From contig NZ_VUNN01000021.1 in NCBI RefSeq assembly GCF_009695635.1, forward strand, positions 1 through 40,348: a DNA stretch of 40,348 bases. Direction: 5' to 3'. Made by a program: the position numbers and the translations under genes. Source of the stretch: Bullifex porci. Its GTDB lineage: Bacteria; Spirochaetota; Spirochaetia; Sphaerochaetales; Sphaerochaetaceae. Below, piece by piece: positions 5,017-39,390 of the stretch (its first letter is position 1; each line of letters begins with the position of its first letter). The notes under the pieces are model-generated. The model did no database searches, had not been told where the DNA came from, and saw only the letters and a program-made list of their open reading frames with translations.

Positions 5017-6372
5017 ATGCTAAAGAGGAAAATTTCAGATTACTTAGAATCTTACTTTACACCTAATAGACGAGAAGCTTTATTAATTACAGGAGCTCGT
5101 CAAGTTGGGAAAAGCTATGCAATACGTGAGTTTGGAAAGAGTCATTACTCCTCTTTTATTGAAATAAATCTACTAGAGGATTCTATTGCTAGGACATCAA
5201 TATCAAAAGCTAGTAATAGTAAGGATTTACTTTTGAGGATTACTGCTATTGCATCTCAACCTCTAATTAAGGGAAAAACATTAATCTTCTTTGATGAGGT
5301 GCAAGTAGTTCCAGAGATAGTGACAGCTATTAAATTCCTTGTTGAGGAAGGAAGCTATCAATATGTACTCAGTGGATCATTATTAGGTATTGGGTTAAAG
5401 AGAATATCTTCTATGCCTGTTGGATATTTAACAGTCAAAGAGATGTATCCATTAAATCTTGAGGAGTTTTATCGAGCTTGTGGCATATCTGATAACATTT
5501 TTAGTGTTCTTGAGGAAGCCTTTAAAGCGGAAAGAGAAATCGATAGTATAATTCATAGAAAGTTGATGGAGCTTTTTCGTCTATATCTTATCGTTGGAGG
5601 TATGCCTGCTGTTGTTCAGACTTATTTAGATACAAATGATATAAAAAAGGTTGTGAATAAACAGAGAGAAATCCTTTCAATGTATGTAGAGGATATTTCT
5701 CAATATGATATTAATAATAAGCTTTATATAAAGGATATTTTCAATCTCATACCTGCTGAATTAAATAATCCAAATAAGAGATTTATTTTGAAAAATTTAA
5801 ATGAAAATACAAAGTTTAGCAGATTAGAGAATAGCTTTATTTGGATTAGAGAAGCAGGCGTAGCTATAGGTGTTTATAATATTGAAGAACCAAAGCTTCC
5901 TTTAGAGCTTGCAAAACTTAGAAATCTATTTAAACTATTTTCAAATGATGTAGGTCTACTAGCCTGTCAGTATGCTGATGGCATTCAACTTAGAATACTA
6001 AATAATGATATAGATATAAATTATGGTTCTATTTATGAAAATGCAGTTGCCGAAGAACTATATTCTCACGGATTGAAGCTATACTATTTTAATAGTAAGA
6101 AGCAGGGAGAACTTGATTTTGTAATAAAGCTTGATGATAAGATTCTTCCAATTGAAGTAAAATCTGGAAAGAACTATTTAAGGCATAATGCATTAAAGAA
6201 TGTAATTGAAAATAAAGATTATGAAATAGAGAAAGCTTATGTTTTATATAATGAAAATATAAAGAGAGTTGGTAATATTGTTTATCTGCCAATATATTTA
6301 ATGATGTTTATCAAAAATAGAGAAATTGAGAATTTAATTTGGAAAATTGATTTATCATCTCTTCCTCAATAA
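5017..6372 (+). CDS. AAA ATPase with DUF4143 (AAA_14) domain
   Basis: The 451-residue protein has a P-loop near the N-terminus (TGARQVGKS, residues 25-33), a Walker B block (KTLIFFDEVQ, about 86-95) and the LSGSLLG sensor typical of AAA_14 proteins. The C-terminal DUF4143 part carries a PD-(D/E)XK-like core (GELDFVI...LPIEVKSGKNY, about 366-390). The family is widespread, often in many copies and frequently horizontally mobile. The biochemical role is not known; nuclease or regulatory functions have been suggested. AAGGAG stands 11 nt before the ATG. It is a single-gene unit between the Lon-like gene and nif3. Codon use resembles its neighbours. Confidence 0.88.
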   Translation: MLKRKISDYLESYFTPNRREALLITGARQVGKSYAIREFGKSHYSSFIEINLLEDSIARTSISKASNSKDLLLRITAIASQPLIKGKTLIFFDEVQVVPEIVTAIKFLVEEGSYQYVLSGSLLGIGLKRISSMPVGYLTVKEMYPLNLEEFYRACGISDNIFSVLEEAFKAEREIDSIIHRKLMELFRLYLIVGGMPAVVQTYLDTNDIKKVVNKQREILSMYVEDISQYDINNKLYIKDIFNLIPAELNNPNKRFILKNLNENTKFSRLENSFIWIREAGVAIGVYNIEEPKLPLELAKLRNLFKLFSNDVGLLACQYADGIQLRILNNDIDINYGSIYENAVAEELYSHGLKLYYFNSKKQGELDFVIKLDDKILPIEVKSGKNYLRHNALKNVIENKDYEIEKAYVLYNENIKRVGNIVYLPIYLMMFIKNREIENLIWKIDLSSLPQ

Positions 6373-6410
6373 ATTACTTTTTGCTTAGCAAATATTATAG
6401 TTTCTTGAGA

Positions 6411-6439
6411 TTGTGGAAAATATCCATTCAACGTATTAT
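6411..6439 (+). promoter_or_regulatory. Promoter of the nif3-lspA operon
   Basis: TTGTGG (6411-6416), 17 bp, TATTAT (6434-6439). The nif3 ATG at 6450 is 10 nt further on, so the leader would be about 0-4 nt. The lemA promoter at 29885 uses the same two hexamers with the same spacing. Confidence 0.6.
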
Positions 6440-6449
6440 ACTTACCTTC

Positions 6450-7208
6450 ATGAAATTAAAAGAACTCGATAAATTTTTAAGAGATAAATTGGAAATTGCT
6501 AATTTTTCATTTGATGCATCATTAAATGGAATTCAAATAGCTTGTAGTGATAAAGAAATTAAAAAGATTGGTTATGCAGTTGATGCCTCTCTTGCAACAA
6601 TTAAAAAGGCAGCTGAAGCAGGGTGTGATATGCTCTTTGTCCATCATGGTCTTTTCTGGGGTGAACCTATCGCAATTAGAGGACCTCACTACGATAGAGT
6701 AAAGGCTTGCCTTGATAACGATATGGCTCTATATGCATGTCACCTTCCACTTGATGCTCATCCTGTATTTGGAAATAATGCTCAAATGGCACAGTGCTTA
6801 GGCATGAAGGGCTATGATATGTTTAGTGAATATCATGGAAGAATGATAGGAGTTAAAGGTAAACTTCCATTTCCAATGAGTGTTGAGCAGGTAATACGAT
6901 TATTAGATTTTTCAGATGCTAGTGGACTTAGAACTTTAGAGTTTGGTAAGGACCTTTGTGAGAGTGTAGGTATTGTATCTGGTGGGGCTGGTAATGATGT
7001 TGCTGATGCTATTGCCGATGGCCTAGATTTATTCATTACTGGAGAAATTTACCATCAAAACTTCCATGAGGCTCTCGAAAACAAAATTAATGTAATAGCC
7101 GGTGGACACTATCAAAGTGAGACCTTTGGTGTTAAAGCAGTAATGAGAATGGTATTAGGTGAATTAGGTATTGAGGGAGAGTTCATTTCATGGCCAACAG
7201 CACTGTAA
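6450..7208 (+). CDS. Nif3-like dinuclear metal centre protein (GTP cyclohydrolase 1 type 2 family)
   Basis: Nif3/DUF34 proteins form hexameric toroids with two metals per subunit; the exact reaction is unsettled. The 252-residue sequence starts MKLKELDKFLRDKLEI and shows the metal-ligand blocks DMLFVHHGLFWG, YACHLPLDAHPVFGNN and, near the end, VIAGGHYQSETFGVKAV. The length matches the short form without the PII-like insert. A TTG at 6381 would extend it by 23 residues, but that stretch carries the promoter and does not look like the family. No Shine-Dalgarno is visible. It is first in a run of five tightly packed genes, and its 3' end overlaps lspA by 19 bp. Confidence 0.9.
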   Translation: MKLKELDKFLRDKLEIANFSFDASLNGIQIACSDKEIKKIGYAVDASLATIKKAAEAGCDMLFVHHGLFWGEPIAIRGPHYDRVKACLDNDMALYACHLPLDAHPVFGNNAQMAQCLGMKGYDMFSEYHGRMIGVKGKLPFPMSVEQVIRLLDFSDASGLRTLEFGKDLCESVGIVSGGAGNDVADAIADGLDLFITGEIYHQNFHEALENKINVIAGGHYQSETFGVKAVMRMVLGELGIEGEFISWPTAL

Positions 7209-7714
7209 AGAGATTCTTGCCCCTTTCACTAACAGCCTTTGTGATCCTCTTAGACCAAATATCAAAGGCCTTAGTAGTAAAGTACATACCTGAAAATACT
7301 ATCTTTAAAAGCTTCTTTTGGGATTTTTTAGAGATAATACATGTAAGAAATGATGCTATTGCCTTTTCTATTGGTTCAGCTCTAGATGTACCTATAAAGA
7401 TAGTATTTTTTATTATCCTTCCGATAATTTTAATGGTACTTGTGATATATTGTGTTTTAAGCACAAAGACAGATAAGGATTTTACTGTTTTTCAAAAATG
7501 GTGCTTAGCTGCTATTGCAGGTGGAGGCATTGGAAACCTAATAGATAGAGTCTTCAGACAGCTAAGAGTTGTAGACTGGATAAGTACAGATATGTATGGA
7601 TTTCTAGGTTTTGATCGATTCCCAACCTATAATATTGCAGATGCATCTATTGTCGTATCAGTGTGCTTAATATTATTATCATTTCTTATAGGAGAGAGGA
7701 AAAAAATTGAGTAA
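7190..7714 (+). CDS. lspA: Prolipoprotein signal peptidase (signal peptidase II)
   Basis: LspA removes the signal peptide from diacylglyceryl-modified prolipoproteins in the inner membrane. The 174 residues contain four hydrophobic segments (about 10-30, 65-90, 104-118, 150-168) and the two aspartate blocks of this aspartyl protease: GGGIGNLIDRV (D119) and FPTYNIADASIVVS (D151). HVRNDAIAFS is the usual conserved N-x-G/A-x-A-F region. The start is supported by GGGAGAG just upstream, inside the end of nif3. Lipoproteins are abundant in spirochaetes, so the gene is expected. Confidence 0.95.
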   Translation: MANSTVKRFLPLSLTAFVILLDQISKALVVKYIPENTIFKSFFWDFLEIIHVRNDAIAFSIGSALDVPIKIVFFIILPIILMVLVIYCVLSTKTDKDFTVFQKWCLAAIAGGGIGNLIDRVFRQLRVVDWISTDMYGFLGFDRFPTYNIADASIVVSVCLILLSFLIGERKKIE

Positions 7715-11423: not shown

Positions 11424-12587
11424 ATGAAAAATCTTTCAGATAGAAGTAGTTATTTTACTGATTCAGTAATAAGACGTATGACCCGAATTTCAATAGAGCA
11501 TGGCTCTATAAATTTATCACAGGGATATCCAGACTTTAATCCACCACAGGAGATTTTAACTAGACTTAAAGAGGTAGCTGATGAGGATTACCATCAATAT
11601 TCAATTACCTGTGGTGCTGTTAATACAAGAAAAGCGTTAAGTGATAAGATGCTTCACTTTTCAGGAGTTTATTATGATCCTAGTAGTGAAGTTACAGTTA
11701 CCTGTGGCTCTACTGAAGCTATGATGGCTTCAATGATGAGTGTAACAGACCCTGGTGATAAGGTTGTAATATTCTCTCCTTTTTATGAAAACTATGGTGC
11801 TGATACTATTTTGTGTGGAGCAACTCCAATTTATGTTCCTTTAGTACCTCCTACCTTTAATTTTGATGCAAATGTTCTTGAAGAGGCTTTTAAGCAAGGT
11901 CCTAAGGCATTAATACTATGTAATCCATCAAATCCATGTGGAAAGGTATTTTCAAAGGAGGAGCTAGAGACTATAGCCTTCTTAGCTAAAAAGTATGATG
12001 TATATGTTATTACAGATGAAGTTTATGAGCACATAATATATGCGCCACATAAGCACACATATTTATCTTCCTTACCAGGAATGAGAGAAAGAACTATTTG
12101 CTGCTCATCTCTTTCTAAGACCTATTCAATTACAGGGTGGAGACTTGGATATACAATGGCACCTGTTGAGATATCAGACCACATTAGAAAGGTTCATGAC
12201 TTTTTAACAGTTGGTGCTGCTGCTCCATTGCAGGAGACTATAATTACAGCACTACGTTTCCCGGATAGCTACTATGAAGTTTTGCAAAATGAGTATACGA
12301 GGAAGAAGAATCTATTCTTATCTGGACTTGATAACCTTGGCTTAAAGCATAATGACCCTAAGGGTGCATACTATGTTTTAATGGATATTTCTGAATTTGG
12401 TTATGATAATGACTCAGATTTTGCTTATGATATGTCTAAAAAGGTTGGTGTAGCCGCTGTACCTGGTTCTTCATTCTTTAGGGAAGATGAAAATAGATAT
12501 GTTCGTTTCCACTTTGCAAAGAAGGATGAAACCTTAATAAAAGCACTTGATAGAATGAGCTCTATTAAAAGACTATTAGCTAAATAA
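11424..12587 (+). CDS. PLP-dependent class I/II aminotransferase
   Basis: This is a fold-type I aminotransferase of 387 residues. Visible motifs are INLSQGYPDF near the N-terminus, NPSNPCGK (about 167-174), VYVITDEVYEHIIY with the PLP-nitrogen aspartate (D198), and SSLSKTYSITGWRLGY with the Schiff-base lysine K232. The C-terminus has VRFHFAKKDE, the arginine that binds the substrate carboxylate. It belongs to the aspartate/aromatic/methionine aminotransferase group; the amino acid used cannot be read from the sequence. It has its own promoter and terminator, so it is monocistronic. Confidence 0.9.
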   Translation: MKNLSDRSSYFTDSVIRRMTRISIEHGSINLSQGYPDFNPPQEILTRLKEVADEDYHQYSITCGAVNTRKALSDKMLHFSGVYYDPSSEVTVTCGSTEAMMASMMSVTDPGDKVVIFSPFYENYGADTILCGATPIYVPLVPPTFNFDANVLEEAFKQGPKALILCNPSNPCGKVFSKEELETIAFLAKKYDVYVITDEVYEHIIYAPHKHTYLSSLPGMRERTICCSSLSKTYSITGWRLGYTMAPVEISDHIRKVHDFLTVGAAAPLQETIITALRFPDSYYEVLQNEYTRKKNLFLSGLDNLGLKHNDPKGAYYVLMDISEFGYDNDSDFAYDMSKKVGVAAVPGSSFFREDENRYVRFHFAKKDETLIKALDRMSSIKRLLAK

Positions 12588-12592
12588 TTATT

Positions 12593-12628
12593 AATAGATA
12601 CACGGGATGCTGTGTATCTATTTTTATA
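12593..12628 (+). terminator. Terminator of the aminotransferase gene
   Basis: Perfect 11-bp stem (12593-12603 and 12612-12622, AATAGATACAC/GTGTATCTATT), 8-nt loop, then TTTTAT. Confidence 0.9.
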
Positions 12629-12689
12629 TTTTAGCCTTGAGTCAAGATTATCAATAACGGCTTTCAGAGTTTATACATTTATAATAAAA

Positions 12690-12800
12690 GCAATAGACAA
12701 ATACTATTTCATTTGTTATCCTCACCTTCGTCTAATCGAAACCATGGCAGTATTGCAGGTGGCGTAGGGGAGTAATTACTCTTGACTATTCTATTTCGAG
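12690..12800 (+). promoter_or_regulatory. Candidate structured leader of yhhQ (possible riboswitch, class not recognised)
   Basis: About 180 bp lie between the preceding terminator and yhhQ. They contain ACAAAT/ATTTGT around an 8-nt loop, CACCT and AGGTG enclosing two small hairpins (TCG/CGA and GCA/TGC), and then the palindrome GAGTAATTACTC. This resembles a multi-branch leader RNA. Because the gene is a queuosine-precursor transporter, a preQ1 or related sensor would make sense, but I could not match the preQ1-I or preQ1-II consensus. Confidence 0.35.
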
Positions 12801-12809
12801 GTTAACAAT

Positions 12810-13502
12810 ATGTTAAATGAAATGTGGTGGGTACTAATGCTAGTACTCAACTTTGTCGCGATTTTATTTGCTTATCGCGTTTGGGGAAAGCTCGGGCTTT
12901 TCATCTGGATTCCAATCTCTGTTATTGTTGCAAACATCCAAGTCACTAAGAATGTCAATTTATTTGGTCTAGAAGCTACTTTAGGTAACATAGTTTACTC
13001 TACAAGCTTTTTAGCTACCGATATTCTTTCTGAAATGTACGGTCCTAAAGATAGTAAAAAGGCTGTAACAATTGGATTTTTCTCTGTAATCGTTATGACT
13101 ATAATGATGCAGCTTGCAATTCAGTTTAATCCAGCTCCTTCAGATTTCGTTCAAGAATCAATGGAAACTATCTTTGGCTTTATGCCACGTATTGCATTTG
13201 GTAGTATCATTGCATATGTAATAAGTAACTTCCATGATATTTGGGCATTTGAGCTTTGGAAGAAGCTTAAACCAGGTAAAAAGACACTTTGGATGAGAAA
13301 CTGCTTCTCTACAATGGTCAGTCAGCTACTTGATTCTCTTATCTTTACATTCATCGCATTCTTTGGCGTTTATGAGATGAGTGTTTGGTGGCAAATTGTT
13401 TTAACAACATATCTTTTAAAGTTTATTGTAGCTGTTTGTGACACTCCATTTATGTATATTGCAAGAAAATGGTTCGATAATAATAAGATTTGTGAAGGTT
13501 AA
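12810..13502 (+). CDS. YhhQ-family queuosine precursor transporter
   Basis: The 230-residue integral membrane protein has about six hydrophobic segments and the family hallmarks: VANIQVTKNVNLFGLEATLG, then FLATDILSEMYGPKDSKKAV, then SQLLDSLIFTFIAFFG and KFIVAVCDTPFMYIARKWF. YhhQ (QPTR) proteins import queuosine precursors (preQ0, preQ1 or queuine) for the tRNA wobble modification. No queuosine biosynthesis gene is in the window. A weak GAGGTTAAC precedes the ATG. The long leader upstream may be regulatory. Confidence 0.9.
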   Translation: MLNEMWWVLMLVLNFVAILFAYRVWGKLGLFIWIPISVIVANIQVTKNVNLFGLEATLGNIVYSTSFLATDILSEMYGPKDSKKAVTIGFFSVIVMTIMMQLAIQFNPAPSDFVQESMETIFGFMPRIAFGSIIAYVISNFHDIWAFELWKKLKPGKKTLWMRNCFSTMVSQLLDSLIFTFIAFFGVYEMSVWWQIVLTTYLLKFIVAVCDTPFMYIARKWFDNNKICEG

Positions 13503-13508
13503 TAATTA

Positions 13509-13537
13509 TTGATTAATTTTACGTATGTACATATAAT
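13509..13537 (+). promoter_or_regulatory. Promoter of cstA
   Basis: TTGATT (13509-13514), 17 bp, consensus TATAAT (13532-13537). The leader of about 60 nt contains a small hairpin (13558-13579) followed by TATTTTT. Confidence 0.7.
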
Positions 13538-13557
13538 GTCAAAAAACTAAAAATCTG

Positions 13558-13583
13558 ATACAGCCGTTTAAGGCTATATTTTT
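13558..13583 (+). promoter_or_regulatory. Leader hairpin with T-run before cstA, possible attenuator
   Basis: AGCC (13562-13565) pairs with GGCT (13572-13575), extended by three A/T pairs across one mismatch, and is followed by TTTTT. It lies after the predicted transcription start of cstA. It may be a weak terminator for yhhQ or an attenuator; the stem is short. Confidence 0.35.
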
Positions 13584-13606
13584 AACCTTTTCGGGAGGGT
13601 ATGACA

Positions 13607-15286
13607 ATGAGTGGTATAGTCATCATGATCATCGCCATCGTTGTATTAGTAGCCGGTTATATTTTCTATGGTAAGTGGCTTGCTAAGAAATGGGGTGTTG
13701 ATCCACAGAAAAAGACTCCTGCATATGAATTGCAAGATGGAGTCGATTATGTTCCTACAGATAAGCAGGTAGTATTTGGTCACCAGTTTGCTTCTATTGC
13801 AGGTGCAGGCCCAATTAACGGACCAATCCAGGCTGCAGTATTTGGTTGGGTACCAGTTCTTCTTTGGTGTCTTATCGGTGGTATCTTTATTGGTGCCGTT
13901 CAGGACTTCTCATCAATGTATGCATCAGTAAGAAATAAGGGTCGTTCTATTGGTGTTATTATTGAGCTCTATGTTGGTAAGGTTGGTAAGAGACTATTCT
14001 TACTCTTCGTTTACCTCTTCTCAATGCTTGTTATCGCAGCTTTCGCAGATATCGTTGCTAAGAGCTTTGGCGTAAATGCAGGTGCAGATGCTACAACACA
14101 GATTGCTAACTCACAGGTTGCTACAGTATCAACACTCTTTATCGTAGCAGCAGTTGGATTTGGTATCTTCCTCAAGAATGCAAAGCCTAATACAACAGTA
14201 AATACAATTGTATCTATCGTACTTCTTATCCTTTGTATTGCTATTGGTTACCTCTGCCCATTCTTAAAGATGAGCACAAATGTATGGCTTTATCTTGTAT
14301 TCTTATACATCTTAATTGCATCAGTTACTCCAGTACAGTACCTCTTACAGCCAAGAGACTACCTCAACAGCTACCTCTTAGTTGCAATGATTGTAGCAGC
14401 TGTTCTTGGTATCTTCGTATCTAACCCTAAGATGAACCTTCCTGCATTCACAGGATTTGTTGCTTCAAGTGGTGCAATGTTCCCAATTCTCTTCGTAACA
14501 GTAGCTTGTGGTGCTGTATCAGGCTTCCATAGCTTAGTATCTTCAGAGACAGCTTCTAAGCAGGTTAAGAACGAGAACGATATGCTCCCAATCTCATATG
14601 GTGCAATGCTTGTTGAAGTACTCCTTGCAGTTATCGCAATCATCGCTGCAGGTGCTGTTGCTGATAAGCTCACAGGTGCTCTTCCTGCAGGTACTCCTCA
14701 GCAGATCTTCTCAACTGCTGTAGCATCATTCCTCGCAGGTATTGGTATTCCTCACCAGCTCAGCTTCACACTCATTTCACTTGCTGTATCAGCATTCGCT
14801 CTTACATCTCTTGACTCTGTAGCTCGTGTTGGTCGTCTCTCATGGCAGGAGCTCTTCCTCGATGATGACGAAGATGAAGCTAACATGGCTTCTTGGAAGA
14901 AGATCATCACAAATAAGTGGGTTGCAACTATTATCGTATTAATTCCTTCTTACCTCCTTGGACAGGTAGGTTATGCTGAAATTTGGGCTCTCTTTGGTTC
15001 TGCTAACCAGCTTCTTTCTGTACTTGCACTTGCAGCTGTAGCAGTATTCTTAAAGAAGACAAAGAAGGACAACAAGATGATGTTCATCCCAATGTTCTTC
15101 ATGCTCGCAGTTACAGTTGTAGCTCTTATCCAGCTCGCATTTAACAACATCAAGACATTTGGTAACGCAAAGATTTCTGTAATGGGCCAGAGCCTCCAGA
15201 TTCTCTTCGCAGTACTCCTCCTTGCTCTTGCTATTATCGTAGTTGTTAACTGCTGTAAGAAGCTCTTTGGTAAAGATGAAGAGTAA
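13607..15286 (+). CDS. cstA: CstA-family carbon starvation protein, peptide/pyruvate transporter
   Basis: CstA proteins are polytopic inner-membrane symporters that take up pyruvate or peptides when preferred carbon runs out. The 559-residue protein has about 14 hydrophobic segments and the family's N-terminal blocks: VPTDKQVVFGHQFASIAGAG, GPIQAAVFGWVPVLLW and QDFSSMYASVRNKGRSIG. FHSLVSSETASKQV is in the middle and ALTSLDSVARVGRLSWQEL later. I prefer ATG 13607 to 13601 because GGGAGG is only 2 nt from the first and 8 nt from the second. Codon use (many CTC leucines, GTT/GTA valines) differs from its neighbours and matches groEL, as expected for high expression. Confidence 0.93.
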   Translation: MSGIVIMIIAIVVLVAGYIFYGKWLAKKWGVDPQKKTPAYELQDGVDYVPTDKQVVFGHQFASIAGAGPINGPIQAAVFGWVPVLLWCLIGGIFIGAVQDFSSMYASVRNKGRSIGVIIELYVGKVGKRLFLLFVYLFSMLVIAAFADIVAKSFGVNAGADATTQIANSQVATVSTLFIVAAVGFGIFLKNAKPNTTVNTIVSIVLLILCIAIGYLCPFLKMSTNVWLYLVFLYILIASVTPVQYLLQPRDYLNSYLLVAMIVAAVLGIFVSNPKMNLPAFTGFVASSGAMFPILFVTVACGAVSGFHSLVSSETASKQVKNENDMLPISYGAMLVEVLLAVIAIIAAGAVADKLTGALPAGTPQQIFSTAVASFLAGIGIPHQLSFTLISLAVSAFALTSLDSVARVGRLSWQELFLDDDEDEANMASWKKIITNKWVATIIVLIPSYLLGQVGYAEIWALFGSANQLLSVLALAAVAVFLKKTKKDNKMMFIPMFFMLAVTVVALIQLAFNNIKTFGNAKISVMGQSLQILFAVLLLALAIIVVVNCCKKLFGKDEE

Positions 15287-15310
15287 TTAGCTAAAAGCTA
15301 ATGTATAAAG

Positions 15311-15339
15311 CCATCAAGTATTTTCCTTGATGGTTTTTT
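15311..15339 (+). terminator. Terminator of cstA
   Basis: CCATCAAG (15311-15318) and CTTGATGG (15326-15333) form an 8-bp perfect stem, followed by six T. The T-run touches the stop codon of the AraC remnant on the other strand. Confidence 0.9.
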
Positions 15340-15640
15340 AATGCCTTTCTCTATATTCTGAAGGTGTTAGACCGACCTCCTGTTTAAATAGCTTTGAGAA
15401 GTGGCTAATATATGAGTACCCAAGCTTATACGATATTTCAAAAATAGTTAAATTAGTCGTTGAAAGAAGTCGCTTCACATAATCAGTTCTAATTTCCTTC
15501 ATATAGCTAACAACACTTCTATTTAAATATCTTTTAAATGCGTTAATTAATACAGGCGCAGAATATCCTGATAGATTATAAATATCATTAGCACTTAGTG
15601 TAATATACTCAGGAGAGTGTAGCCTACTGTACCTTGGTCT
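15338..15640 (-). pseudogene. AraC-family regulator remnant, C-terminal HTH domain only
   Basis: Read on the minus strand and ending at a TAA (15338-15340), the sequence encodes about 100 residues of an AraC double-HTH domain. Motifs include LSANDIYNLSGYSAPVLINA, then KEIRTDYVKRLL and the signature GYSYISHFSKLFKQEVGLTP, then SEYRERH. The frame stays open to about 15690 but has no plausible start or Shine-Dalgarno, and the ligand-binding N-terminal half is missing. The homology fades near 15640, where the opposite-strand mannosidase remnant begins. It is therefore a truncated gene, probably cut by the same deletion that beheaded the mannosidase. AraC regulators commonly sit divergently from glycosidase genes, which fits the ancestral layout. 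Confidence 0.82.
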
Positions 15641-16330
15641 GATTGTATTTACTTTTACACTAAGGGTTCTTGGAATGAAACAGATAAAATGCTAAGCGCT
15701 GAATTTGAGCCAGCAATATGGAGTGATGAAATTATTTGTGAAATTCAGGATGGGGTAATAAAGCGAAAAACAAAAAATGAAACTCTAGTTGAAAGAGCTC
15801 AATTTGAGATTTGTAATCATAAGTTCTCAACTATTATTAATGATGGCTATGCTTTTACGCTTGTAAATGATTCAAAGTATGGCCTAAGAGCTAAGGATGG
15901 AAAGCTATCACTTAATTTACTTCGTTCTCCGACCTTCCCTGATGAAAGTGCAGATAAATGTGAGCATGAGTTTATATATTCTATATTACCTCATAGAGAT
16001 AATGAATTAATTAATAGTGTAAGGAGTGCTCATAACTTAAATAGACTACCTTTAGTCTATAGAGCAGATTACGCTATGGAAAGGCTCGTTAAGCTATCGA
16101 ATAGCTCTTTAGTTTGTGATTGTATAAAAGTAAGTGAGGATAAAAAGGAGGGTATAGTAGTTAGAATCTATGAGCCATGCGGTAATAGTGTGACTACAAG
16201 CTTAGCTGTTTATTTTTCATATAAAAGAGTTTTTGAGTGTATTTTAATTGAAGGTAACAGAAAAGATGTTGATCTTAACAAGCTTAGCTTTTCGCCTTGT
16301 GAAATAAAAACTTTATACTTTGAAATATAA
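15640..16330 (+). pseudogene. GH38 alpha-mannosidase remnant, C-terminal domain only
   Basis: The frame is open from about 15623 and matches the C-terminal beta-domain of GH38 alpha-mannosidases: FYTKGSWNETDKMLSAEFEP (typically DWxERHKLLKVxFP), then HEFIYSILPHRDN, then NSSLVCDCIKVSEDKKEGIV and VRIYEPCGN, ending SFSPCEIKTLYFEI. A full enzyme is about 800-1000 residues; here only about 220 remain and the catalytic N-terminal barrel is absent. An internal ATG at 15689 would allow a 213-residue product, but it has no Shine-Dalgarno. It lies head to head with the AraC remnant. The 3' end and terminator look intact, so the loss came from the 5' side. Confidence 0.8.
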
Positions 16331-33886: not shown

Positions 33887-35515
33887 ATGGCAAAACAGTT
33901 ACAGTTCAATGAAGAGGCTAGAAAGTCTCTAGTTAACGGTGTTGAAAAGATTTCAAAGGCTGTTATGACAACATTGGGACCAAAGGGAAGACTTGTTCTT
34001 CTTGATAAGAAATATGGTGCTCCTACAGTAACAAAGGATGGTGTATCTGTAGCACGTGAAATTGAGCTTGAGGATCCATTTGAAAACATGGGTGCACAGC
34101 TTTTAAAGGAAGTTGCTTCAAAGACTAATGATGTTGCTGGTGACGGAACAACAACAGCTACAGTACTTGCATATGCTATTACAAAGGAAGGTATGAAGAG
34201 TGTTGCTGCTGGTGTTAACCCAATGGGCATCAGAAGAGGTATTGATAAGGCTGTTAAGCTTACAGTTGAAGAGATTAAGAAAGATGCAAAGATGATTCAG
34301 GAGAAGGAAGAAATCGCACAGGTTGCATCTATCTCCGCTAACAACGATAGAACTATCGGTGATGAAATTGCTAATGCAATGGATAAGGTAGGTAAGGACG
34401 GTGTTATTACAGTTGAAGAGTCTAAGACTATTGAGACTACCGTTGATTTCGTTGAAGGTATGCAGTTCGATCGTGGTTATCTCTCAGCTTATTTCTGCAA
34501 TAATAGAGACACTATGACAAGTGTTATGGAAAACCCATATATCCTTATTTATGATAAGAAAATTAGTAATATGAAGGATCTTCTCCCAGTTCTTGAGAAG
34601 GTTGTTCAGACAGGTAAGGGCTTATTAATTATCGCTGAGGATGTTGATGGCGAAGCATTAACAACACTCGTACTTAACTCAGTTAGAGGTACTATCAATG
34701 TAGTTGCTGTTAAGGCTCCTGGCTTTGGTGATAGAAGAAAGGCAATGCTTGAGGATATCGCAGTTCTAACAGGTGGTCAGGTAATTACTGAAGAGCTCGG
34801 TATGAAGCTTGAAAATGCTGATCTTTCAAGTCTCGGTAGAGCTAAGAGTGTAAAGGTTGAAAAGGAAAATACAACTATTATTAATGGTGCTGGTTCTACA
34901 GATGCTATTCGCGATAGAATCGCACAGATTAAGAACCAGATTGTTGATTGCACATCTGACTATGATAGAGAAAAGCTCCAGGAGCGCCTTGCAAAACTCG
35001 CAGGTGGTGTTGCTCTAATCAATGTTGGTGCAGCTACAGAGGTTGAGCTCAAGGAGAAGAAGCACAGAGTAGAGGATGCTCTTTCTGCAACTCGTGCTGC
35101 TATTGAAGAGGGTGTTATCCCAGGTGGTGGTGTTGCTCTTGTTCAGGCAGTTAATGCTCTTGCTTCTCAGGATCTTTCAAGCCTCACAGAGGATGAGAAG
35201 GTTGGCTTCAATATCGTTAAGAGAGCACTCGAAGAGCCTATCAGACAGATTGCAGAGAATGCAGGTCTTGATGGTGCAGTTATCGCTGATCATTGTAAGA
35301 ATGAGAAGAAGGGTGTTGGCTTCGATGCTAATGAGATGAAGTGGGTTAACATGGTTGAAGCAGGTATCATTGACCCAGTAAAGGTAACAAGATCTGCTTT
35401 ACAGAATGCAGCTTCAATTGCAGCATTAATCCTCACAACAGAGTGTGCTGTTACAGATATCCCTGCACCAGCTCCAGCTATGCCAGCAGGTAACCCAGAG
35501 ATGGGTATGATGTGA
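33887..35515 (+). CDS. groEL: Chaperonin GroEL (Cpn60)
   Basis: GroEL forms the double-ring ATP-driven folding chamber. The 542-residue protein is full length: [20 protein letters not shown] at the start, [17 protein letters not shown], the ATP site [27 protein letters not shown]-like [18 protein letters not shown] and a C-terminus ending [12 protein letters not shown]. The tail lacks the repeated GGM of many GroELs. No groES is upstream or downstream, as in Treponema pallidum, where the two genes are unlinked. Codon bias is toward the highly expressed set. Confidence 0.97.
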
Positions 35516-35534: not shown

Positions 35535-35572
35535 AAGAGCTCCAAGGTCTTAATGGTCTTTGGAGCTTTTTT
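35535..35572 (+). terminator. Terminator of groEL
   Basis: AGCTCCAA (35538-35545) and TTGGAGCT (35560-35567) form an 8-bp stem, extendable by A/T pairs, with TTTTTT after it. Confidence 0.9.
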
Positions 35573-35602
35573 AATATCTTTGTTTATGTTATTTTTTTGC
35601 TC

Positions 35603-36799
35603 ATGGGAAAAGTCACTATAAAAGATGTAAGTATTCAAGAGCTATTAAGCTTAATTAATCATATTCCGCAATATAAGAGTGTATATACTTGGGATGGCCA
35701 AAAGACCTCTGAATTAATTAAGGATATCGCAATTGCAAAGGAAAGCTATCCATTGGGTACAATAATCTTTCATAGGGATGATTTAGTAGATGGACTTTCT
35801 CGTGTAATAACTCTATCTCTTGCATTTAAGGCACTTGGATATAAATATCCTGAGCTTACTAAAAGCTGGACTCCTGAGGAGCTAAAAAGAATTAAAGAGA
35901 ATTGGAGAATAATTAAAAAAAGTATAGAGGGCTTTGATAAGGAAAGCTTTAAAAACTCATTACTTAATAATACATTTGTCACTTTAATCATAGCTGAGGA
36001 GCTAAGTGATTGCTTTAGCTTCTTTGATAGTGGGCATGAAAGGGGTAGAGAGCTTGATATGGCCGATATTTTGAAGGCTTACCACCTAGTTTCTATGAGA
36101 GGTGATAGTGAGAAGGATAAAATTGATAGTGTTGCAAAATGGGAGAGCTTTGATAAAGCAGAGCTACTTCATCTATTTATGCTTCAATCTATGCTATGGC
36201 ACTATTTAAGAGGTGAAGGAGCTTATCCTTTAACTAAGGAGCATGCCTTTTTATTTGAAGGTGTTGAGAAGGATCGTGATTACCCATATGTAAAGAGAGT
36301 ATTAGATACACTCTATTGCTTAGAGAGTCCTATGATAAATGGAAAGTGGTTCTTTGATCATACCTTTCATTATATAGATCTTCTTAGAGAAGTTTATAAA
36401 ATGACTGAAAATGAAATTCCTACTGTTCTAAAGAGAGTTGATTTAAATAATCCAAGCCAAGAGAGATGCTTTGATCTATACCTTGCACTAGCGCTCTTTG
36501 CAGCAGATAGGTTTGGAGATAAAACTCAAATATTACTTAAGAAAATATTTAAATATTCATTTGCACCACTACTTGAGGATTTATCTGTAACGCTTTCAAA
36601 ATTAAATGAGCACGTCTTAGATAGTAAATCATCACTATTAAATGTAATTAGATATTCCTCTGATGTAGGTGAGGTTGATTCCTATAACCTAGCATTAATG
36701 CTTGATGGAATGAAGAATATCTCATTTAGAGGCAAGGGACCTGTTAGAGATATTGATTTTGATAAAGATTTTGATATGTGGCTTAAAGAGGAGTGTTGA
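35603..36799 (+). CDS. DUF262 family protein with altered DGQQR motif
   Basis: The 398-residue protein begins KDVSIQELLSLINHIPQYKS and keeps the YxW block of DUF262 (SVYTWDGQKTSELIKDIAIA), the GSxxF-like strand (YPLGTIIFHRDD) and the central motif as LVDGLSRVITLSLAF. The usual motif is DGQQR; here QQ is LS, so nucleotide hydrolysis may be lost. No HNH (DUF1524) domain is seen. DUF262/GmrS proteins occur in modification-dependent restriction and other defence systems. The start is at ATG 35603 without an obvious Shine-Dalgarno. It is followed after 2 bp by a second DUF262 gene. Confidence 0.75.
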   Translation: MGKVTIKDVSIQELLSLINHIPQYKSVYTWDGQKTSELIKDIAIAKESYPLGTIIFHRDDLVDGLSRVITLSLAFKALGYKYPELTKSWTPEELKRIKENWRIIKKSIEGFDKESFKNSLLNNTFVTLIIAEELSDCFSFFDSGHERGRELDMADILKAYHLVSMRGDSEKDKIDSVAKWESFDKAELLHLFMLQSMLWHYLRGEGAYPLTKEHAFLFEGVEKDRDYPYVKRVLDTLYCLESPMINGKWFFDHTFHYIDLLREVYKMTENEIPTVLKRVDLNNPSQERCFDLYLALALFAADRFGDKTQILLKKIFKYSFAPLLEDLSVTLSKLNEHVLDSKSSLLNVIRYSSDVGEVDSYNLALMLDGMKNISFRGKGPVRDIDFDKDFDMWLKEEC

Positions 36800-36801
36800 A
36801 G

Positions 36802-38160
36802 ATGGATTTAATGAAATTAAAGATGCTCTTAAATAGCGATAAATATATAGTTCCTGTATATCAAAGAGAATTTGCTTGGAGCCAAGAGGAGCTTATAAGA
36901 TTAGTAAAAGATATTGAGGATTCAAGAAGGTGTGGTAAAGAGGAGTACTATATGGGCTCTCTAGTTACCTTCCATCTTGAGGACCACTACGAGTTAGTTG
37001 ATGGACAGCAGCGCTTAACAGCCCTTGCTCTCTTATTTACTCTCTCAAATGATGATAGAAGAATTAACCTTTCCTATGAGGCTCGTCCTGCCTCTGTTGA
37101 GAGTCTTGAGAGTCTTCAAAGGGGAGAAGGAAAGAGTGGCCATATTTTTTATCGTTCAAGAGAAATTCTTTCTAGTGAGGTAGAAAAGGTTGATAGAGAA
37201 GCTTTCTTTGAGTATTTAAGAGAGCATGTTTATATCCTTAGAACAGAATTAAGTAGCTCTACAGATTTAAACCACTACTTTAAGATTATGAATTCACGTT
37301 ACCCTCAATGCACAAAGGGAGATGTAGTATTCTCTATCTTACTTTCAAAGCTAGAGAATCCAAAGGAGAGAGAAATAGCTAAGGTTATTTGGAGAGGCCT
37401 TGATTCCTTTTCAGGCTTTCTTGCAGGGTGTATTCCAGAGCGCTTATATAACAGAATGATATACGGAGATGGTGTTGCACCTCTATTAGATAGCAGCTAT
37501 AAATCGTGGTGGAAAATGATAACAAGCCATACAGAGGGTGATGATGATAATATCACATGCTCTCTTGATGATGCTTTAGTTTTTGATAGTGAAGAATATA
37601 TTCGTCCTATGATGAGAAGTGAAAAGGGTGGATGCTTTTATTCAATATTAACCTTTGAAGAGTTTTTAATGTATGGAGCCTCTCTAATTTTAGAGCTTGA
37701 AAACGACTTTGATGATAAGAAAATATTAGAAGTATATTCCCATCTTTCTAGCTTTAATAGTGAAGAGGTTAAAAGCTTTTTATATGATTTACTAATTTTA
37801 AGATATTTATTTGACACCTATATTATTAAACGAAATGGTGATGATTGGTGTTTATTAAAATATAAAGATATCAATGAATACGTTTTAGCCTTTGATGAAA
37901 TGAATAAAAAGCTAGTTAACCTAGAGAGCCTCTATGCTTCAGCTATTGACACTAAATTATGGCTAAAGCCTATCTTAATATTCTTAAGAAAAAATGTTCA
38001 CTCCTCTGGTGAGGAGCTATTAAAAGCTCTTGAGAGCTATAGCTTTGATTCACAGCTATACTTACTCTATAAGGAGAAGTATTACGATAATAATCTTAGC
38101 TCAAAATCATACAAAATTGTCAAAAATGGGTCGCTATTTGATATTTTCAATGATAATTAA
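36802..38160 (+). CDS. DUF262 family protein (GmrS-like)
   Basis: The 452-residue protein has canonical DUF262 motifs: NSDKYIVPVYQREFAWSQEE, LIRLVKDIEDSRR, YYMGSLVTF and HYELVDGQQRLTALALLF with the full DGQQR. DLNHYFKIMNSRYPQCTKGD replaces the usual FERLNxRGxxLSxxD block. The rest is helical; no DUF1524/HNH motif is visible. GmrS-type proteins couple NTP hydrolysis to DNA cleavage in type IV restriction, but the nuclease half is missing here. I start at ATG 36802 (GAGGAG 8 nt upstream) rather than GTG 36793. It forms a two-gene unit with the preceding paralogue. Confidence 0.85.
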   Translation: MDLMKLKMLLNSDKYIVPVYQREFAWSQEELIRLVKDIEDSRRCGKEEYYMGSLVTFHLEDHYELVDGQQRLTALALLFTLSNDDRRINLSYEARPASVESLESLQRGEGKSGHIFYRSREILSSEVEKVDREAFFEYLREHVYILRTELSSSTDLNHYFKIMNSRYPQCTKGDVVFSILLSKLENPKEREIAKVIWRGLDSFSGFLAGCIPERLYNRMIYGDGVAPLLDSSYKSWWKMITSHTEGDDDNITCSLDDALVFDSEEYIRPMMRSEKGGCFYSILTFEEFLMYGASLILELENDFDDKKILEVYSHLSSFNSEEVKSFLYDLLILRYLFDTYIIKRNGDDWCLLKYKDINEYVLAFDEMNKKLVNLESLYASAIDTKLWLKPILIFLRKNVHSSGEELLKALESYSFDSQLYLLYKEKYYDNNLSSKSYKIVKNGSLFDIFNDN

Positions 38161-38196: not shown

Positions 38197-39390
38197 ATGA
38201 ACTTTATTTTTATATCACCTCAATTTCCTCATACCTATTGGAATTTCTGCAATAGGTTAAAGAAGAATGGAGTAAACGTTCTTGCAATCGGAGATAGCTC
38301 ATATGATTCTCTATCAAAGGAGCTAAAGGAATCAATAACAGAGTATTATCGTGTTAATAACATGGAAGATTATGACCAGATGTATAGGGCTGTAGCTTTC
38401 TTCGCCTTCAAATATGGTCGTATCGATTGGTTAGAGTCTAATAATGAATATTGGCTCGAGCAGGATGCAAAGCTAAGAACTGATTTTAATATCACAACTG
38501 GTGTAGATAATAAGGGAATAAAAAAATATAAGTCTAAATATGAGATGAAGAAGTACTACATCAAGGCTGGTGTACCTGTTGCAAGAATTCATAAGGTTAG
38601 TGATTTAAAGAAGGCAAAGAAGTTTATCGATGAAATTGGTGGTTACCCAATTATTGCAAAGCCTGAGTGTGGTGTAGGTGCTGCTCATACATATAAAATT
38701 ACAAATGATAGTGAGCTTGATTCTTTCTTTGCATCAAAGCCTAACTATGAATACGTTATGGAGGAATTCATCGAGGGTGATATCGTATCCTACGATGTAA
38801 TTACAAATTCAAAGTGTGAGCCTCTCTTTGAATCTATGACCTGTTGGCCACCTTCAATTGCTGATATTGTTAATAACAAGCTTGATCTTGATTATTACAC
38901 AGCAGCCGATGTACCTGAGTCATTAAGAGCTCTTGGAAGAGCAACTGTTAAGTCCTTTGATGTTAAATCAAGATTTGTACACCTTGAATTCTTTAAGCTA
39001 AGAAAGGATAAAAAGGGCCTTGGTAAGAAGGGTGATTTCGTTGGTCTAGAGGTTAATATGAGACCAGCTGGAGGATATACTCCTGATATGATGAATTGGG
39101 CTCATGCAACAGATGTATATCAAATTTGGGCAGATATGGTTTGTCAGGATAATAGAGTAGTACCTGAGCTCAGAATGGATCACTTCTGTGTTTATGCTTC
39201 TAGACGTGATAATTACTCATATAAGCACTCCTATGATGAGGTTATTAATAAATACAAGGATAAGATCGTTATGGCCGAGCGTCTTCCAGCTCTTTGGTAT
39301 GATGCTATGGGTAACTATATGTTTACTGCTCATGCAGATGATGAAGCAGCAGCTCTTGAGTTTATTAGCTTTGTAGAGGAGAGAGCTTAA
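38197..39390 (+). CDS. ATP-grasp family carboxylate-amine/thiol ligase
   Basis: The 397-residue cytoplasmic protein has an N-terminal Rossmann-like domain (NFIFISPQFPHTYWNFCNRL) and an ATP-grasp domain: KYKSKYEMKKYYIKAGVPVA, GGYPIIAKPECGVGAAHTYK with the ATP-binding lysine and glycine loop, YVMEEFIEGDIVSYDV and, late, GDFVGLEVNMRPAGGYTPDM with the metal-binding E-x-N. Such enzymes join a carboxylate to an amine or thiol through an acyl phosphate. The substrates are unknown. AGAAGGA precedes the ATG. The stop overlaps the esterase start by one base. Confidence 0.88.
   Translation: MNFIFISPQFPHTYWNFCNRLKKNGVNVLAIGDSSYDSLSKELKESITEYYRVNNMEDYDQMYRAVAFFAFKYGRIDWLESNNEYWLEQDAKLRTDFNITTGVDNKGIKKYKSKYEMKKYYIKAGVPVARIHKVSDLKKAKKFIDEIGGYPIIAKPECGVGAAHTYKITNDSELDSFFASKPNYEYVMEEFIEGDIVSYDVITNSKCEPLFESMTCWPPSIADIVNNKLDLDYYTAADVPESLRALGRATVKSFDVKSRFVHLEFFKLRKDKKGLGKKGDFVGLEVNMRPAGGYTPDMMNWAHATDVYQIWADMVCQDNRVVPELRMDHFCVYASRRDNYSYKHSYDEVINKYKDKIVMAERLPALWYDAMGNYMFTAHADDEAAALEFISFVEERA

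Follow-up and report, generated by a model that had tools for sequence, protein, structure and literature searches.

What might a tandem pair of DUF262 proteins do when neither carries the nuclease of its relatives and only one keeps an intact nucleotide pocket? This question is raised by two genes of Bullifex porci that lie within the 40,348-nucleotide stretch of contig NZ_VUNN01000021.1 analysed here (the window):

35603..36799, + strand: protein A, 398 amino acids (ATG at 35603, TGA at 36799), a DUF262 domain with degenerate QR, DGQQR and FxxxN motifs, then a C-terminal helical DUF7834 domain
36802..38160, + strand: protein B, 452 amino acids (ATG at 36802, TAA at 38160), a DUF262 domain with all three motifs intact and a helical linker

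The stop codon of A and the start codon of B are separated by two bases, and the ORF coordinates, together with the detection of PF03235 in both proteins, bear out what had been said of this arrangement in an earlier account made from the letters alone (the sequence-only reading). The Pfam match of A to GmrSD_N/DUF262 (PF03235) is above the cut-off (E 7e-13) and its C-terminal half belongs to a recognised family, DUF7834 (PF25202, E 1e-18), a point omitted in that reading; no mention of DUF7834 was found in the open-access papers searched. Protein B matches PF03235 only (E 1.5e-23). As had been claimed, neither protein has a DUF1524 domain, PF07510 being absent from both in the Pfam search; the EHxxPQ motif is also absent from B, which ends at the point where the HNH core of its relatives starts. 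The three motifs are canonical in B (YQR, DGQQR and FKIMN) and all degenerate in A (YKS, DGLSR and FFDSGH). The sequence-only reading had set DGLSR in A against DGQQR in B; the motif table confirms this and extends the degeneration of A to the QR and FxxxN motifs. This split is not due to chance, because the orthologous pairs that follow groEL in two more species show the same asymmetry (A with DGLSR and DGEAR, B with DGQQR). NCBIfam gave no match for the pair. Matches to the PADLOC defence library were HEC-06, Orf5 and SspE, with the N-terminal DUF262 domain as the top-scoring stretch and some weaker matches of A covering a stretch up to about residue 213. B had no counterpart in the phage collection.

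The missing nuclease was sought in structure models as well as in sequence families. The model of A (pLDDT 81) matches SspE in its DUF262 part (Z 12.5, 2.1 Å over 146 residues). That of B, with a mean pLDDT of 66, is good to about residue 150 and weak beyond; it matches SspE and DndI with a Z of about 15 and BrxU with a Z of 6, and it aligns to residues 9-509 of 771 in SspE and 6-399 of 588 in DndI, in both cases short of the nuclease end. ParB and Srx chains matched the models weakly (Z 3-5), the better matches being DUF262 proteins, which according to the literature belong to the ParB/Srx-fold NTPase superfamily. None of the structural matches of the A or B model supplied a nuclease. At the groEL site B ends in a tail of about 35-40 residues (about 416-452), modelled with low confidence and without a Pfam match, at the position where the HNH domain of the relatives starts; the B protein of a second chromosomal site, at cysK, ends earlier and lacks the tail. 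A hidden nuclease in B was rejected in agreement with the sequence-only reading, as neither sequence families nor structure comparison gave one, the last 37 residues being too uncertain to be judged alone. A stand-alone DUF1524 partner acting in trans was likewise rejected: PF07510 was not found in five of the six genomes with the pair (G003, G004, G006, G010 and G013, the last being 62% complete), and both matches in the window genome lie on contig C4. The possibility that the pair is a guard against a resident GmrSD enzyme was also rejected, since four carriers (G004, G006, G010 and G013) have no DUF262 protein besides the pair.

For comparison, pairs were taken from plasmids, other Spirochaetia and viral contigs; the alignment, with the nuclease-less clade included, comprises 19 A and 20 B proteins. 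In most comparison pairs the first protein has about 430-530 amino acids and the second about 590-790. PF03235 was detected in every protein of both sets, and PF25202 in each of the 19 A. The pair is homologous to these systems; for A the homology was checked against pairs of the same architecture (plasmids, viral contigs, Spirochaetia). PF07510 was found in 14 of the 20 B proteins, the six without it being five members of the nuclease-less clade and an intron-interrupted gene on contig C4 whose HNH lies downstream. The motifs of the comparison A proteins, DGQQR included, are intact wherever they can be read, and an HNH domain is present in every comparison pair with a readable full-length B. 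Among the pairs examined, the double loss, of the motifs in A and of the HNH in B, is confined to the clade of the window pair.

Contig C4 of the window genome (G000; locus L025) has features of its own. It encodes a TgvAB-like pair whose B gene contains a group II intron and then a frameshift before the readable HNH. Two identical copies of a 420-amino-acid group II intron reverse transcriptase are present on the minus strand (6307-7569 and 14735-15997), one of which interrupts the B gene, and near this pair a separate DUF262 protein of 582 amino acids (12427-14175, minus strand) has the C-terminal HNH-like sequence VEHIMPQ. On a Picosynechococcus plasmid (L021, 6346-9081) the second gene of a DUF262 pair is annotated as two pieces and is followed by an IS1 transposase and then a separate HNH family gene.

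Within the nuclease-less clade all six copies of A lack the R of QR, the first Q of DGQQR and the N of FxxxN but keep the D, G and R of DGxxR. Counted over the clade copies, 24 of 54 motif cells are lost in A against 0 of 45 in B. The combination of one degenerate and one intact pocket noted in the sequence-only reading is therefore real and has been conserved that way in six species. None of the nine motif positions of B is changed, as against 36 of 66 other conserved positions with a change in one or more copies (p = 0.002). The losses in A show no significant bias towards the pocket (3 of 9 motif positions lost in all copies against 8 of 48 other conserved positions, p = 0.35) and a claim of pocket-concentrated loss was dropped. 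Protein A may still bind or even hydrolyse nucleotide, because the D, G and R of DGxxR are kept and because BrxU with the motif changes Q101A or R102A binds nucleotide without hydrolysing it.

The surroundings of the pair in the window are as follows:

33887..35515, + strand: groEL, the upstream neighbour (Pfam Cpn60)
35538..35573, + strand: hairpin resembling an intrinsic terminator 3' of groEL, AGCTCCAA...TTGGAGCT followed by a T-run, found by eye and also present in L017
35587..35595, + strand: candidate extended -10 element TGTTATTTT, found by eye a few bases 5' of the ATG of A
38197..39390, + strand: ATP-grasp protein, downstream neighbour (Pfam ATP-grasp), syntenic in L017 and L018
39390..40136, + strand: esterase-family protein, downstream neighbour (Pfam PF00756)

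As a terminator-like hairpin follows groEL, the pair is probably not an extension of the groEL operon; the hairpin is missing from the list of the terminator scanner, which has a loop limit of 8 bases. The candidate -10 element was not flagged by a consensus promoter scan. A TGnTAT-like box occurs at the same place 5' of A in L017, L026, L027 and L028 and, in weaker form, in L018. No Shine-Dalgarno sequence was seen by eye before the ATG of A (positions 35579-35603), and this, together with a -10-like box so close to the start codon, suggests that the message of A is leaderless. The occurrence of the box at both chromosomal sites suggests that the promoter moved together with the pair. The genes groEL, A, B, ATP-grasp and esterase are found in the same order in G010 (L017) and G003 (L018), and in G003 the block is followed by yajC-secD (named from their sequences). 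Other members of the genus that were examined have no DUF262 pair after groEL: in G006, G004 and G013 yajC-secD follows groEL directly and in several others at least one unrelated gene intervenes. The pair with the ATP-grasp and esterase genes therefore lies between groEL and yajC only in the groEL-site group. The distribution of ATP-grasp homologues coincides exactly with that of the pair (the same six genomes), but in the cysK-site genomes they lie at different loci.

Within the genus, the nuclease-less pair is present in all six species of a single lineage and in none of the ten other species. In a species tree of 16 genomes of the genus, built from groEL and PGI, the carriers form one clade (support 100/100); six species are a narrow base for the interpretation given below. 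Two chromosomal sites are occupied, groEL-yajC and cysK. A more distant version is carried by G006, G013 and G004, in which A has DGYQR and B stops after the linker without an HNH; cysK adjoins the pair in G006 and in G004, the copy in the latter, only partly assembled genome being divided across contigs. The HNH-less A and HNH-less B proteins each form one clade (99/98 and 100/100), which argues for a single origin. The gene trees of A and B agree with the species tree, and GC3 of the two genes (0.22-0.70) tracks each host. No internal stops are present in the five complete copies. The dN/dS of A is 0.08 between G000 and G010 and 0.12 between G006 and G013, rough values given a dS near 2; for B, dS is saturated, and in the same two comparisons pN is 0.16-0.21 against a pS of 0.74-0.76. 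Purifying selection has thus acted on the pair over a long period of vertical inheritance; the pair is fixed in the lineage and has changed its chromosomal position once.

The reading that we favour, with a rough probability of 55%, is that the pair derives from a TgvAB-like two-protein modification-dependent restriction system of the GmrSD type and forms a heteromer that no longer cuts and has a single live NTP pocket. The homology to such systems, the lack of an HNH domain in B, the loss of pocket-motif residues in A and the retention of the pair are established by the comparisons above; the complex, its NTP use, its DNA binding and its function are inferred. A heteromer of A and B is plausible because published relatives need both proteins. 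In it, B would be the sole live NTP switch and A a pseudo-NTPase that acts as scaffold or sensor, and the complex would bind a target, probably DNA, under NTP control and without cutting it, as a sensor, regulator or roadblock and not as a restriction enzyme. The features on which its relatives depend have been lost, yet the pair has been kept by a lineage of gut spirochaetes, and this suggests a new, non-cutting use. More tentatively, and at somewhat less than even odds, the pair may be a domesticated restriction system: the DUF262 heteromer, passed on vertically in this one spirochaete lineage, would have taken on a cellular role as a DNA-binding or regulatory complex that is switched by NTP.

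It could be argued that the pair is still an anti-phage system, in which an A-B complex would detect phage DNA that carries modifications and then either recruit another nuclease in trans or block replication or transcription. Its presumed ancestors are defence systems that require both proteins, the pocket of B is intact, and A is only 62-78% identical between species whose GroEL proteins are 97-98% identical. However, the flanking genes, DUF92 and DUF2207, have diverged about as much, so that divergence alone is no mark of an arms race. Defence in the published systems depends on the nuclease: in TgvAB it is abolished by a change to DGQQR in either protein or to the HNH of TgvB, both proteins being essential (PMC11411939), in GrwAB by changing the motif R in either protein or the nuclease (PMC12137116), and in E. 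coli ECOR17 an HNH-dead GmrSD2 gives none (PMC12373910). No stand-alone DUF1524 was found in five of the six carriers, and the housekeeping surroundings, vertical inheritance and fixed presence of the pair are unlike those of a mobile defence island. A conserved pair restricted to housekeeping neighbourhoods had been named in the sequence-only reading as a ground for giving up its proposal; for this clade the neighbourhoods, groEL/yajC and cysK, are indeed of that kind, and this makes defence a weaker reading without casting doubt on the pair itself. On balance we consider continued anti-phage function unlikely.

The remaining explanations are much less probable. The phage T4 internal proteins Ip2 and Ip3 inhibit GmrSD enzymes, the two-gene ECOR17 system among them, and a nuclease-less look-alike could serve as bait for such anti-restriction proteins, or could poison GmrSD-type enzymes by mixed assembly. 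On contig C4 the window genome does encode both a TgvAB-like pair and a DUF262-HNH protein, but in G004, G006, G010 and G013, with no other DUF262 protein, there is nothing resident to protect or to poison, and a decoy role is therefore improbable. We give no more credence to a split system, in which a new catalytic activity, located in the tail of B or in the adjacent ATP-grasp or esterase protein, has taken the place of the nuclease. The constant order of the four genes in the groEL-site clade and the restriction of ATP-grasp homologues to the six carriers speak for it; against it, the ATP-grasp gene of the cysK-site genomes G004 and G006 lies apart from the pair, and the short tail of B, predicted poorly and matching no Pfam family, is missing from cysK-site B. 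The loss of nuclease and pocket residues is also what would be expected at the start of the decay of a restriction system. That the pair is such a relic is the least probable of these readings and is strongly disfavoured by selection and retention: with synonymous sites near saturation the complete ORFs still contain no stops, A shows a dN/dS of about 0.1, the motif residues of B are all unchanged, and every member of the lineage has kept the pair.

A non-cutting heteromer of this kind would be a candidate case of a restriction system that has become a lasting part of the cell. As a natural version with one live pocket and no nuclease it separates sensing and switching from cutting, and would allow work on NTP use, partner binding and target recognition free of toxicity, over-expression of both active ECOR17 proteins being toxic (PMC12373910).

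The sequence-only reading had suggested an undescribed module. This does not hold for the architecture, as tandem DUF262 pairs are a described class that includes TgvAB, GrwAB and GmrSD-ECOR17. TgvAB of Vibrio cholerae VPI-2 (PMC11411939) resembles the window pair in having two adjacent DUF262 genes, a first protein without a nuclease and a second whose DUF262 domain has intact QR, DGQQR and FxxxN motifs; it differs in the motifs of TgvA, all three of which are present, and in the DUF1524 HNH domain of TgvB, so that of the features of a TgvAB-type system the window pair shows the gene arrangement and the intact motifs of B and lacks the intact motifs of A and the HNH of B. Nor does the pair conform to the GmrSD type IV definition of DUF262 with DUF1524, whether in one chain or as a GmrS plus GmrD pair. 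GmrS1-GmrSD2 of E. coli ECOR17 (PMC12373910) likewise has a GmrS-only first gene and a second GmrS gene, but it also has an HNH, which it needs for defence and which is absent from the window pair. E582-H583 are present in the comparison pairs L019 and L157, and their numbering coincides with that of the active-site residues altered by mutation in GmrSD2, which suggests that both pairs belong to the ECOR17 group. A DNA query with a Raoultella A gene gave no match in the E. coli genomes. GrwAB of the V. cholerae WASA lineage (PMC12137116) also consists of two DUF262 proteins acting together, with the nuclease on GrwA and a long extra C-terminus of unknown domains on GrwB, whereas the window pair has no nuclease and a DUF7834 domain in A. 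The single-chain members of the GmrSD family, SspE, DndI and BrxU, correspond to the model of B in DUF262 domain and linker, and SspE to A in the DUF262 domain; unlike the window pair they have an HNH on the same chain and no second DUF262 protein. Why a second DUF262 protein is needed is left open in the reports on TgvAB and GrwAB (PMC11411939; PMC12137116). No nuclease-less, one-pocket version of a tandem DUF262 pair was found in the open-access papers searched. The tandem DUF262 architecture is thus already known, and what appears to be new is the nuclease-less form with a degenerate first subunit.
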